DNA of 64,000 nt from Neocallimastix lanati (nom. inval.) (taxonomy: Eukaryota > Neocallimastigomycota > Neocallimastigomycetes > Neocallimastigales > Neocallimastigaceae), in NCBI GenBank assembly GCA_016946835.1, contig JACVTC010000025.1:1-64000 (forward strand), given 5' to 3'. The notes beneath the pieces are model-generated. The model had not been told where the DNA came from. It saw only the letters and a list, made by a program, of their open reading frames with translations, and did not search any database. The position numbers and the translations under genes are program-made. Numbering within the stretch: the first letter of the stretch is position 1; each line of letters opens with the position of its first letter. Below, in pieces: positions 46,189 to 51,260 of the stretch.

Positions 46189-46789
46189 TGTAACGAATAT
46201 TGGAATATCCGTGTTTTAAAGAGTGTAACACAATAGGTAAGCACTTTTTGATTAATAAGTAATTTGGTTTTTTAAAATATAGTTTTATTAATTAAGAAAT
46301 TTAAAAATATTAATTATAAAGTTTAATTATTGTAATATTTCGAATTACTTATTAATTAATTCAATAATTAATAAAAACACAATTTTTAGAATCTTTTGGC
46401 TGCGAAATTCACTCCTATTTATAGTTTTTCAAAATTTAAATCCATAAAAATTTAAAACCATAAAATCATTAAAAAGTTTCATAAAAATTGATTATTTTCG
46501 GTTAAAAAGAATCTAAAAGAAATAATGATAAAAGATAAATTAAAATAGAATTTCTATCTGATTTGTTTCTATTAATTTCTAAGAATTTCTTTTGTTAATT
46601 TTTTACAGAAATTTATACAGAAACAAATACAGAAACAAATACAGAAATGAAGTATAAAAATTCTTTAAAATTTAAATGATATAAAATTTTAGTAAAGGTG
46701 TGAGTCGAACCCTAGTGGTTCAGGCTGAGGTCATAGTGACTAACCACTATGCCAGCATTCTAATTTCTAATTTTTTAAGATTCGTTACA
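46189..46789 (-). repeat. 3' LTR of the intact element
   Basis: 601 bp, TGTAACGAAT...ATTCGTTACA, identical to 50660..51260 by visual comparison. In element orientation it begins with a short A/T leader and then the tRNA-like segment listed separately. A 12-bp unit ACAGAAACAAAT is tandemly repeated near its middle. Confidence 0.95.
46697..46757 (-). promoter_or_regulatory. tRNA-like Pol III promoter segment in the LTR
   Basis: On the minus strand, about 33 nt from the LTR start: A-box-like TGGCATAGTGGTTAG and B-box-like GGGTTCGACTC, 43 nt apart as in tRNA genes. The D-arm-like stem can form (TGGC/GTCA) but the T stem and acceptor stem cannot, so it is not a tRNA gene. The same segment is present in the other LTR at ~51168..51228. 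Confidence 0.65.
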
Positions 46790-46826
46790 TGGTCCTCCTC
46801 TAGGATTCGGATGCCAGACGAATCTT
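46777..46826 (-). promoter_or_regulatory. Polypurine tract inside a foldback at the LTR junction
   Basis: On the minus strand CTAGAGGAGGACCA directly precedes the 3' LTR and is the expected plus-strand primer. Arms AAGATTCGT (46777-46785) and ACGAATCTT (46818-46826) are exact complements, placing the tract and the LTR edge in the loop. Confidence 0.75.
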
Positions 46827-47104
46827 TTACTTTAAATCTAAACTATTTCTAATTCTAACTTTTATAATAATAAACTATAACTAAAATACTTATAGGAGTG
46901 ATAATTTAATTAATACATTGGATAATAAAAATTACATGAATTTTAAGTTTTGAAAATAAAGTATAAAAATAAAACTATCTAGAATAAATGTTTTTGAATA
47001 ATATAAAATAATTTTTTTTTTTTTTTTTTTAAAATAATCATAAGTTAGAATGATTAATAGTACTTTGATGAAATAAAATTTATTTTTGATTAAATGATTT
47101 ATAT

Positions 47105-49747
47105 TTAGTTGGACTCATTAAATTCTTTGATTAGTTCAGGGCAGTTGAGGTTGGATTCAGGTTCCCACGAGGCATCAGATAGTGAGTATCCTTTCCATTT
47201 GATGAGATATTGAATTTTTCCATAATGTTTTCTTTTATCCAGAATCTTTTCAACTTCATATTCTTCTTCATCATCTATGATAACCGGTGGAGGTGGTGCT
47301 TGAGTTCTATTAAAATTGTCTTCATAATATGGTTCTAATTCGGATACATGTATAATTGGATGAATTCTATACTTCTTTGGTAGATCTAATTTGTAAGTTA
47401 CCGGAGAGATTTTCTTTATAATTTTGAAAGGTCCTAATTTTCTTGGTTTAAGTTTTTTGTTTTTGTTTCTTAAAATGAGAGAACTATTCAGCCATACTTT
47501 ATCATTTTTCTTGAATTCTGGGGCTTGGGTTCTGTGTTTATTTGCAAAGTTTTCTTGTTTCTTAGAGGCGGTTTCCAAATTCTTTTTTAATTCCTTAGAG
47601 AGATCAGATAAATTTACTACAAAGTCTTCAGCTCTTGGTACATCGATGTTACTTGGTATTACTGGTGAATGCCTAGGATTGAATCCATAATTTGCATAGA
47701 AAGGTGAGTAATTAGACGATTCCTGGATTGCATTGTTGTAACTGAATTCGGCCAGATAAAGATAGTTACTCCAATTAGATCCTTTGTAGTTAGCAAAACA
47801 TCTTAAATATTGTTCAATAACGGAGTTCACCCTCTCCGTCAAACCGTTAGTTTGGTGATGGGATGGAGAAGAGAACTTCAACTTAATGTCGAGGGCGTCG
47901 CAAACAGCAGTCCAAAATTTAGAGGTAAATTGGGTTCCTCTATCGGATAGAATTTCATTTGGTAAGCCGTGGAGTCGAAAGACGGTTTTCATAAAAGCAG
48001 AAGCAGTGTCAGGGGCGGAAGGAACGTTTTCAAAAGGAATAAAGTGGCACATTTTAGAGAAGCGGTCGACAATGACAAAGATACAAGTAAAACCAGAAGA
48101 TTCAGGGAGATCGGTAATAAAATCCATAGCAATAGAGATCCAAGGGCGATTAGGAATTTCAAGCGGTTGTAAGTATCCATAAGGTTTGTGTCTTGAGTCC
48201 TTAGAACGGCAGCAAGTTTCGCAGGAGCGAATATAGTCTTTAGCATCAGAGTTAAGCGAGGGCCACCAAAAGTCGCGATTTAAAAGATTAATTGTTTTTC
48301 GAATTCCGAAGTGACCAGCGGAGGGAGAGTCATGGCAGATCTTAAAAGCGTGTGAGCGGCAGTTAGGCGGAATATAAAGTTTGTTGGCAGATTTTTCATC
48401 GAAGACATCAATAAATTGCAAAAGCTTTTCAGGAAGATTGTTCGTTTCAGGTTGATTAATTGATTCTAAGGTTTCATCATCAAGTTGGGGTTCTTTTTCT
48501 GTAACGTGAGCAGTGAAAGTCATAGGAATAACCAGGCAATTATTAGTGCAATAACTTGATTTAAAGCAAAGTTTCTTTTCAGAGAAATTTATCATTGGAT
48601 TATGGGTACAGAGCCATTCAGAGCCAAGTATGCAGCAGTAAGAGGGTAAATCGATGATGTAGAATTCAGCTAAGCATTTGTGATTATCATAAGTGAGGGA
48701 GAGTGGCATGGTTTTGCCTAATATAGTTTGATTTCCACCTATACCGGAGACTTGTGGGACAACATTTTGTTTTTCGAAGGGAATATTATTTTCTTTTGCG
48801 AAGTAGATATCCATAAGATTTAATTGTGATCCGGAGTCAATTAAAATTTTGGTTTTAACAGAAGCGTTTGAGGTACTTATATTGAATTCAAAGGTTGCAG
48901 TTTTAACATTGGGATTATCAGAGAGTCTTGGTCTTGGCTTGGTTGTTTCTGGATTTGTTACGTAAGTAGTATTACTGCTTGTACTGTTATTATTGTTTCT
49001 TTTTCTGTTTTTGATGGGGCAATTATCAAGTTGGTGGTCAGTAGATCCACAATAGAGGCAGAGGTTTTCCTTTCTTCTTCTTTCTTTCTCTTCTTTTGAA
49101 AGAGGTCCATGGGTTTTATTAGGTTTGGATTGAAAAGGTTTTTTACCAGCGTTTCTTTTAAAATTGTTTCTAGTATTACTATTATTGTTGTTTTGTCGGT
49201 TGGTTAAGTTATTAAAGTTTCGATGGTTTGATATGCGGCTATCAATTCTGGAAGCAATTGTTTGCATTGCGAATAATGAACGGGGTCCTGGAAACATTTC
49301 GAGTATTCTGGTAGCTATTTGGTCTTGTAATCCATCCAAGAAAGCATCCATCTTGGCTTCTTCGTTCCAAGATGAATCATCAGCATATCGGTTGAATTCC
49401 ATGATGTAATGTTGAATATCACCGATTCTTTTTTGCTTTATTGTTCTTAACCTATGGTTTGCCACAAAAGTTGCGTCATTATTCCCAAAAACCGATTTCA
49501 TTCGTTCGATGAATTCTTCGTAATTACCTAGGCATGGATCCATGTTTTCAATTAACGTTGCTGCCCAGTTCATAGCGGTTCCATATAGTCTTGAAATAAT
49601 GTATACCACTTTTGATTCATCATCAACGAATCTATCTGGATAGATCATAAAAAGAAGTTCAATTTTAGCGAGGAATCCTTTAAAATACCTTCTATCACCG
49701 GCGAATCCATCCTTGAGTGTTGCATTACTATTGTTTACTTCTTCCAT
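47105..49747 (-). CDS. Gag-protease-integrase-chromodomain polyprotein lacking RT/RNase H
   Basis: 880 residues in one frame. Gag capsid-like region ~1-190; CCHC zinc knuckle [14 protein letters not shown] at 230-243; aspartic protease with LIDSGSQ, catalytic Asp304; then, at Leu457/Tyr458, the pre-RT motif [13 protein letters not shown] joins directly to [11 protein letters not shown], which normally follows RNase H. Integrase: zinc finger His472, His479, Cys509, Cys512; catalytic triad Asp542, Asp602 and Glu638 with the canonical 35-residue spacing; GPF/Y motif KLGPFKI; chromodomain ~820-872 ([25 protein letters not shown]). Typical Ty3/Gypsy polyproteins are ~500-700 residues longer. The ORF is free of stops and the junction is in frame. 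Integrase and protease look competent. It starts at a Met directly after a poly-A leader. Confidence 0.95.
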
Positions 49748-50137: not shown

Positions 50138-50367
50138 AGTTATTATAATCATTAATTTTGATTGAATAATAAATATACAATATAATTAATTATTAGAAGA
50201 AGTAAATATTTAATTTCAATATAAATAATTTTAATTTCAAGGATGGTTATATGGATTATTGAAAATATTAATAATTTTAATATATAGTAAAATTCAAGGG
50301 TTCCGATTGAATTTATAAATTCCTGCATGAATTTTGGTAGAAAAATTTATAGTCTTGGTAAGTGTTT

Positions 50368-50618
50368 TCCAAAAATAGTAGAAAATGGGATTCCTTAACG
50401 GGGTTCCAAAAAGAGTAGTAGAGAATGGGATTCCTTAACGGGGTTCCAAAAAAGAATAGTAGTAAATGGGATTCCTTAACGGTGTTCCAAAAATAGTAGT
50501 AGAAAATGGGATTCCTTAACGGGGTTCCAAAAATAGTAGTAGAAAATGGGATTCCTTAACGGGGTTCCAAAAATAGTAGTAGAAAATGGGATTCCTTAAC
50601 GGGGTTCCAAAAAGAGTA
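50368..50618 (-). repeat. 40-bp minisatellite in the element leader, 6 copies
   Basis: Six units at 40-41-bp spacing, each containing GGGATTCCTTAACGGGGTTCC on the plus strand (starts at 50387, 50427, 50468, 50508, 50548, 50588). On the element strand every unit reads TGGAACCCCGTTAAGGAATC. One copy has GGTG in place of GGGG. Located between 5' LTR and ORF. Confidence 0.93.
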
Positions 50619-50659
50619 AAAGTGCAAAGGTATTGTGCTTAGTTTAGTGGTGTTTTTAT

Positions 50660-51260
50660 TGTAACGAATATTGGAATATCCGTGTTTTAAAGAGTGTAAC
50701 ACAATAGGTAAGCACTTTTTGATTAATAAGTAATTTGGTTTTTTAAAATATAGTTTTATTAATTAAGAAATTTAAAAATATTAATTATAAAGTTTAATTA
50801 TTGTAATATTTCGAATTACTTATTAATTAATTCAATAATTAATAAAAACACAATTTTTAGAATCTTTTGGCTGCGAAATTCACTCCTATTTATAGTTTTT
50901 CAAAATTTAAATCCATAAAAATTTAAAACCATAAAATCATTAAAAAGTTTCATAAAAATTGATTATTTTCGGTTAAAAAGAATCTAAAAGAAATAATGAT
51001 AAAAGATAAATTAAAATAGAATTTCTATCTGATTTGTTTCTATTAATTTCTAAGAATTTCTTTTGTTAATTTTTTACAGAAATTTATACAGAAACAAATA
51101 CAGAAACAAATACAGAAATGAAGTATAAAAATTCTTTAAAATTTAAATGATATAAAATTTTAGTAAAGGTGTGAGTCGAACCCTAGTGGTTCAGGCTGAG
51201 GTCATAGTGACTAACCACTATGCCAGCATTCTAATTTCTAATTTTTTAAGATTCGTTACA
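50660..51260 (-). repeat. 5' LTR of the intact element
   Basis: 601 bp, same ends and sequence as 46189..46789. As the upstream LTR it should hold the promoter for the RT-less polyprotein. The tRNA-like segment lies within its first ~95 nt. Confidence 0.95.

Follow-up and report, generated by a model that had tools for sequence, protein, structure and literature searches.

The stretch analysed here, called the window throughout, comprises the first 64,000 nucleotides of contig JACVTC010000025.1 (forward strand) in assembly GCA_016946835.1 of Neocallimastix lanati (nom. inval.), and it holds, on the minus strand at 46189-51260, a Ty3/Gypsy chromovirus of 5,072 bp inside a very AT-rich genome (the G+C content per 2 kb across the window is 9-37%). 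The element is a recent insertion of a derivative, deleted for reverse transcriptase (RT), from a Ty3/Gypsy chromovirus family. As a preliminary description of this DNA had reported, its two long terminal repeats (LTRs; 46189-46789 and 50660-51260) agree at 601 of 601 positions and ATAAC stands at both outer edges. Between them lies a single open reading frame (ORF) of 880 residues with zero internal stops, in which Pfam recognizes Ty3 capsid/Retrotrans_gag, RVP_2, H2C2, rve, SH3_Tf2-1 and Chromo. The catalytic triad of the integrase (INT) is formed by D542, D602 and E638, the last two being separated by 35 residues (DD35E). This triad, the CCHC knuckle, Asp304 of the protease (PR) and the stop-free frame had all been listed in the preliminary description, and ORF reading, Pfam and a residue check find every one of them. 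No RT or RNase H family matches the 880-residue ORF in Pfam at E<=1. Membership of the TRIM, LARD or TR-GAG types, which carry little or no coding sequence or gag only, was also considered and is ruled out by the presence of PR, INT and a chromodomain. The coordinates of the features are collected in Table 1.

Table 1. Features of the RT-less element and its immediate borders (window positions; aa, residues; TSD, target-site duplication; PBS, primer-binding site).
Feature	Position	Strand	Basis or remark
TSD ATAAC, 3'-LTR side	46184..46188	.	sequence repeated on the other side
3' LTR, 601 bp, TG...CA	46189..46789	-	matches the other LTR exactly
Purine-rich tract adjoining the 3' LTR, sense ...TAGAGGAGGACCA	46790..46815	-	26-nt string in 20/20 copies compared
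Single ORF, 880 aa, Gag-PR-INT-chromodomain, without RT/RNase H	47105..49747	-	ORF list, Pfam
Chromodomain, residues 830-878	47114..47260	-	Pfam
INT C-terminal SH3, SH3_Tf2-1, residues 749-807	47327..47503	-	Pfam
INT core, rve match, residues 538-629	47861..48136	-	D542 and D602 inside; E638 just beyond
INT H2C2 zinc-binding domain, residues 459-517	48197..48373	-	Pfam
Deletion joint, sense TGCCAACAAACT, 12-mer	48378..48389	-	full-length copies have a second one, TGACAACAAACT, 1,557 bp farther downstream
Aspartic protease RVP_2, residues 296-397, D304	48557..48862	-	Pfam, residue check
CCHC knuckle, residues 230-243	49019..49060	-	residue check
Gag capsid region, Ty3_capsid, residues 20-187	49187..49690	-	Pfam
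40-bp tandem repeats, 5' leader	50371..50653	-	unit number apparently variable among relatives (overlapping matches)
Putative PBS, sense ATAAAAACAC, directly after the 5' LTR	50650..50659	-	complements LTR nt 410-419; same in 20/20 copies compared
5' LTR, 601 bp	50660..51260	-	matches the other LTR exactly
Candidate self-primer LTR stretch GTGTTTTTAT, PBS-complementary	50842..50851	-	43 nt past the start of the TATAAATAGG box
TSD ATAAC, 5'-LTR side	51261..51265	.	sequence repeated on the other side

The assembly searched amounts to 199 Mb, and about 10 kb was retrieved around each of 20 further copies of the family. Thirteen of them, among which L014 shares its flanks with L025 and L015 with L017, keep the undeleted spacing of the two 12-mers and hold 1,557 bp more than the window element. 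An ORF of 1,399 residues is uninterrupted in nine of these thirteen (L013, L014, L016, L017, L020, L022, L025, L027 and L029). In L013 it matches RVT_1 and two RNase H families, and the order of this autonomous form, Gag-PR-RT-RNase H-INT-chromodomain, is that of a Ty3/Gypsy chromovirus. The in-frame absence of RT and RNase H pointed out in the preliminary description is thereby confirmed: the junction is exact against the full-length relatives, and the 1,557 bp found there between its two halves are equivalent to 519 codons and cover RVT_1 and both RNase H families. The 12-mers bounding the loss are identical at 11 of 12 positions. A 51-bp pattern spanning the window junction (up to 3 mismatches) occurs at exactly two places in the assembly, and the reversed control pattern at none. 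The second place, L011 on contig C1, displays an 880-residue ORF, LTRs identical at 605 of 605 positions, the TSD TCTAC and other flanks. Having its own site, TSD and flanks, L011 demonstrates that two separate insertions carry the 1,557-bp form. The PBS and the polypurine tract (PPT) are the same strings in 20 of 20 copies compared, full as well as deleted, so that RT-bearing relatives with matching priming sites do exist. Full and deleted copies depart from the window by just 2-11 substitutions in Gag-PR (1,370 bp) and 2-7 in INT (1,273 bp), with the gag-less L032 excluded.

The loss seen in the window is one of at least five classes of RT-destroying deletion in this family, four of which retain INT and the chromodomain. 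Marker patterns, counted with up to 3 mismatches so that more diverged copies escape, gave 94 places for INT, 97 for gag and 63 for the YIDD region, and the joints of the 336-, 1,212- and 1,251-bp deletions were found at 29, 19 and 8 places. When markers were joined by strand and spacing, the 94 INT places resolved into 33 full-type copies (meaning a YIDD marker at the expected distance, with the individual ORFs read in part of them), 29, 19, 8 and 2 copies of the 336-, 1,212-, 1,251- and 1,557-bp classes, and three others; the four deletion classes thus account for 58 of the 94. Every joint lies at a direct repeat, of 7 bp (336), 10 bp (1,212; 9/10 identical), 12 bp (1,251) or 12 bp (1,557; 11/12). 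The 336-bp form (L012) keeps RNase H but lacks profile positions 1-105 of RVT_1, the first half of that domain, and no RT or RNase H match was obtained at E<=0.001 in L030 (1,212) or L019 (1,251). The fifth class, a 2,193-bp in-frame deletion at a 7-bp repeat, removes most of INT, so that Gag-PR runs into the last part of INT and the chromodomain, and its joint occurs at three places in the genome (C128, C445 and C732). The three other INT places are C677, with a 580-bp out-of-frame deletion, C544, whose 3' flank is also that of the 1,251-bp copy C96, and the unclassified C268:690396. Eight gag markers have no INT marker, and seven were read (C268:1080295 was left out): they comprise the three 2,193-bp copies, a 2,235-bp in-frame deletion at C250, a 2,810-bp deletion reaching the ORF end at C40 and two chimeras. 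The 580-, 2,235- and 2,810-bp deletions were each seen once, the last two among the copies read rather than in a genome-wide search for their joints. The chimeras, C57 (L118) and C621 (L115), are about 97% like the family before RT and about 75% in INT, are RT-less, and remain open in frame across the stretch read.

The number of insertions was estimated from the 3' joints of the 94 INT-marker copies, a tally that does not include the 2,193-bp class and in which contigs repeating a flank were counted once. The joint was readable in 88 of the 94 (6 were unreadable) and gave 78 distinct joints, distributed as 25 (336), 15 (1,212), 8 (1,251), 2 (1,557), 26 (full-type) and 2 (others); hence 50 of the 78 carry one of four RT deletions. 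One 1,212-bp joint (C423) adjoins LTR-like sequence, as judged by eye. Some small contigs repeat the 3' flank of a larger one (e.g., C447/C40, C419/C309 and C275/C2/C460), as alternative haplotypes would. Near-identical LTR pairs were observed in the examined copies of the 336, 1,212, 1,251 and 1,557 classes. At the protein level, a search returned 71 hits, seven of which were read. P0001 (995 aa) contains the 1,212 joint, P0002 (1,287 aa, 6 members) the 336 joint and P0003 (868 aa, with a different C end) the 1,251 joint. All three derive from JGI (longest contigs 3.1-4.7 kb) and are the sole hits of at least 99% identity, so that the 1,557- and 2,193-bp forms have no close match among the 71. 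Distant RT-less ORFs also appear, in P0026 (58%; Gag-PR fused to the last part of INT plus the chromodomain) and P0045 (49%; Gag with a chromodomain), and P0018, 70% alike, bears the label Orpsp1_1, which we take to be Orpinomyces. Together with the low G+C content of the window, this similarity fits an anaerobic gut fungus.

These copies are very probably template-switch deletion derivatives mobilized in trans by full-length ones. While copying RNA, reverse transcriptase would jump between short repeats and generate the deletions; the shortened RNAs would retain LTRs, PBS, PPT and leader, be packaged together with full-length RNA in particles, and there be copied by RT supplied in trans, with integrase contributed by either partner. 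Shortened forms outnumber complete ones, and they probably live off them. The LTRs of the window element and L011 differ by 3 mismatches and one gap. Since they are identical within each copy and different between the two, each insertion went through reverse transcription, and since neither the two elements nor their likely parents encode RT, the enzyme came in trans. The preliminary description had proposed that the RT-less form is itself propagated by RT acting in trans. The external source of RT is upheld by the second copy with the same junction at another site, by the RT-bearing relatives and by the sister classes at 8, 15 and 25 joints, and the exact 1,557-bp form may itself breed true. 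A variant within the INT marker is common to the full-type (9/33), 336 (10/29) and 1,212 (13/19) classes, as recombination in shared particles would be expected to produce. Two observations weigh against this account: the sharing of variants across classes also fits recurrent deletion at the same repeats, and the window joint is known from just two copies, with no close match to its form among the protein hits.

Of the alternatives, the one that survives best, although it is unlikely, is that each RT-less copy was newly deleted from full-length RNA in its last copying cycle and that deleted forms do not breed. The repeats make such recurrence plausible, and the INT variant common to full-type and deleted classes agrees with it. 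To examine the descent of the window form, 28 distinct copies, including the 13 full ones, were aligned (L033, the same copy as L019, was dropped). The window carries the variant right-480C, as do 6 of 8 distinct 1,251-bp copies, whereas all 13 full copies and all 4 copies of the 336-bp class lack it, which speaks against a fresh origin from full-length RNA; it is also absent from the single 1,212-bp copy aligned and from L011. Right-716T is confined to the window and L031 (1,251), and right-617C to L031 and L011. No variant is exclusive to the window and L011, a point in favor of recurrence. Within the 1,251-bp class, the two have variants in common with different copies, which leaves room for two separate 306-bp losses from RT-less templates as well as for a single loss with later recombination. 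Among the best 40 LTR matches to L011 that were scored, the first 21 include all eight 1,251-bp loci, again in conflict with recurrent fresh deletion; if the two LTRs of L011 itself and C544 are included, 18 of the 21 belong to copies of the 1,251- or 1,557-bp class, and the other 3 come from a single 336-bp copy and two places left unclassified. A table of 20 3' LTRs (L026, with a single LTR found, was omitted) separates the classes less cleanly: L012, of the 336-bp class, is nearest to both the window and L011, and the window is equally distant from the full copy L021 and from the 1,251-bp copy L019, as recurrence from full copies would allow. Finally, a later 1-nt insertion is common to two 1,251-bp copies located at different sites, and therefore at least that form was copied onward. 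Taken as sequence relationships, these variants indicate that the window element probably arose when a form of the 1,251-bp class lost another 306 bp between the two 12-mers, and the simplest reading is that this loss happened once or twice from a 1,251-bp template, with recombination. In that case the template was already devoid of RT, and RT would likely have been lost stepwise at short repeats.

A simple later deletion, in which repair between the 12-bp repeats removed RT from a full-length copy after its insertion, is improbable. Ordinary repair also uses direct repeats such as the one at the joint, and deletions seen a single time do exist (580 bp in C677, 2,235 bp in C250 and 2,810 bp in C40), but the identical joint recurs in L011, which has a site and a TSD of its own, and the variants tie both copies to the RT-less class instead of the 13 full copies, with most of the best LTR matches in agreement. 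Even less credit can be given to an assembly or amplification artefact that collapsed RT between direct repeats. The position of the joints at repeats is what such an error would leave; however, the window joint lies on two contigs with different flanks, other classes occupy up to 25 distinct joints, and three classes are found as proteins on JGI contigs, possibly from the same organism. The combination of an intact DD35E integrase and a missing RT might suggest integrase-driven cut-and-paste without reverse transcription, of the kind known from Ginger DNA transposons, which have an INT-like transposase and no LTR, PBS or PPT. This is hardly tenable: LTRs identical within copies (601/601 and 605/605) and different between them are a mark of reverse transcription, and PBS and PPT are kept. 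Accordingly, membership of the Ginger type is ruled out by the LTRs, the PBS and the PPT. The removal of RT from the RNA as an intron, followed by retro-copying of the spliced product, would make the loss precise and in frame but has next to no likelihood, because GT and AG are both absent from the 12-mer containing the joint, which leaves no possible GT-AG placement inside it, and because four other deletions with other ends also lie at repeats.

All five deletions with at least two copies in this family are multiples of three, for which the chance is about 0.004 with five independent events and about 0.012 with four; as the 1,557-bp form is probably 1,251 plus 306, four or five events is the right count. 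Two sets of data weaken a strict rule under which only in-frame forms spread. The deletions met a single time are mixed: that of 2,235 bp preserves the frame, that of 580 bp breaks it, and that of 2,810 bp extends to the end of the ORF. The insertion shared by the 1,251-bp copies C357 and C511 at their different sites ends the ORF at residue 830 of 982. In 14 deleted copies, 27 nonsynonymous and 20 synonymous changes and 0 stops were counted, against an expectation of 34.3 nonsynonymous changes (sd 2.9); a number this low came up in 1.25% of 2,000 simulations, and the ratio of nonsynonymous to synonymous rates (dN/dS) is about 0.5. The 13 full copies gave 24 nonsynonymous changes, 11 synonymous ones and one stop (dN/dS about 0.8). 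These counts are small, ignore kinship and leave indels aside, with L033 (= copy L019) and L032 (gag start replaced) dropped. They lend weak support to the ORF of deleted copies being still in use, and the retained frame suggests that the shortened polyprotein may remain useful to its own RNA. A tentative extension is that the RT-less Gag-PR-(INT)-chromodomain fusion favors the RNA or cDNA from which it stems, through packaging or through nuclear or chromatin tethering. Such action in cis would account for the spreading deletions being in frame and for the chromodomain being kept in the 2,193-bp class, P0026 and P0045; the frameshift common to two 1,251-bp copies, which removes the chromodomain, counts against it. 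If true, the family would be a fungal counterpart of mouse IAP 1-Delta-1, in which defective forms outcompete and perhaps restrain the autonomous element.

The termini of the family were also compared. An LTR pair of the TG...CA type with a 5-bp TSD was found in the window and in 9 of 11 retrieved relatives having the usual LTR start; in L015 and L017, which occupy one site, the TSD matches over just 4 bp. In 8 of 19 two-LTR relatives, located at 7 sites (L014, L016, L019, L020, L021, L022, L025 and L029), the first 5-14 nt or so of the 5' LTR are swapped for other sequence up to the A-run AAAAAATTAG, the 3' LTR being normal and no clear TSD visible. This altered start could result from one-ended integration or from a plus strand initiated at another purine tract. 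L019 (1,251-bp-deleted) and L022 (full) have 1.2 kb of upstream flank in common (98.5%), including the changed LTR start, while their downstream flanks differ.

Regarding priming, no tRNA-type PBS (TGG) follows the 5' LTR. Instead, the 10-nt string found there has its complement in the LTR, 43-56 nt after the TATA box, in 20 of 20 copies, and a length of at least 10 was reached in 20 of 500 shuffles. The family is thus a candidate for Tf1-type self-priming. The LTR also contains tRNA-like strings, an A-box TGGCATAGTGG (sense nt 36-46) and a B-box GGTTCGACTC (79-88) with starts 43 nt apart. ARAGORN at default settings detects no tRNA gene in the window, Rfam gives nothing at E<=1 in 46000-51500, and a lowered ARAGORN threshold yields one unlikely hit on the opposite strand. 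A tRNA gene inside the LTR was rejected on these grounds, just the A- and B-box-like strings remaining, and they may possibly be a pol III promoter-like remnant or a tRNA-derived insert. Elsewhere in the window, minus-strand ORFs of 494 and 422 aa overlap at 16344-19035, possibly as one gene with an intron or a frameshift, and a 1,653-aa minus-strand ORF at 6154-11115 has asparagine-rich tracts and, by eye, ankyrin-like stretches.

No description of the window family, or of INT-bearing elements deleted for RT only in gut fungi, was found in the searches made of the open-licence PMC literature; related systems have been described in other organisms. Passages of PMC7175516 and PMC4600332 present the fungal Gypsy elements of the Tf1/sushi type as self-priming. 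The window family resembles them in having one ORF, no tRNA-type PBS, and a putative PBS that complements an LTR stretch just past the TATA box. The candidate match is 10 nt in the window family as opposed to 11 in Tf1. Tf1, moreover, is not known to carry a chromodomain. In wheat, the Gypsy elements RLG_Sabrina_SA and RLG_Quinta are presented in excerpts of PMC9744471 and PMC11302176 as semi-autonomous, keeping GAG-Pro or GAG without RT and INT, each with an autonomous partner of matching PBS and LTR termini. Possibly shared coding capacity, a missing RT and a matching autonomous partner recur here. The wheat partners, however, are separate families, whereas deleted and full copies differ here by few substitutions, and the INT absent from the wheat elements is kept, together with the chromodomain, in 4 of the 5 classes. 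For bovine ERVK[2-1-LTR], the portion of PMC10924933 consulted states that defective elements outnumber competent ones and recombine with them, which is read there as a sign of co-packaging. Deleted forms likewise outnumber full-type ones here, but the bovine defective type lacks functional genes and the ORF is mostly open in the family of the window.

By analogy, the system that appears to work most like the window family is mouse IAP 1-Delta-1. It is depicted in sections of PMC6466679 and PMC7411935 as an IAP subfamily with a 1.9-kb in-frame gag-pol deletion that leaves one fusion ORF, as the source of most new IAP insertion mutations, and as needing proteins in trans, a cis effect of the fusion protein having also been reported. 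This precedent for an LTR element coding for a fusion after in-frame RT deletion means that the preliminary description overstated how unusual it is to keep Gag, PR and INT while dropping RT and RNase H. In the window element, too, an in-frame internal deletion leaves one fused ORF, and the deleted form stands at several sites (2 joints for the window form and 8, 15 and 25 for its sisters). The two differ in that IAP is a betaretrovirus-like vertebrate endogenous retrovirus and the window family a chromodomain Gypsy, and in that the IAP deletion takes part of gag and pol, whereas Gag and PR are whole in the window element. What N. lanati offers is a natural series of RT-deleted yet coding LTR elements in one genome (full, -336, -1,212, -1,251, -1,557 and -2,193 bp), which makes it testable whether an element's own shortened polyprotein helps it to compete for RT from intact copies, and suggests that parasitism by an element's own deletion forms, described in mammals and cereals, also operates in a very AT-rich fungal genome.

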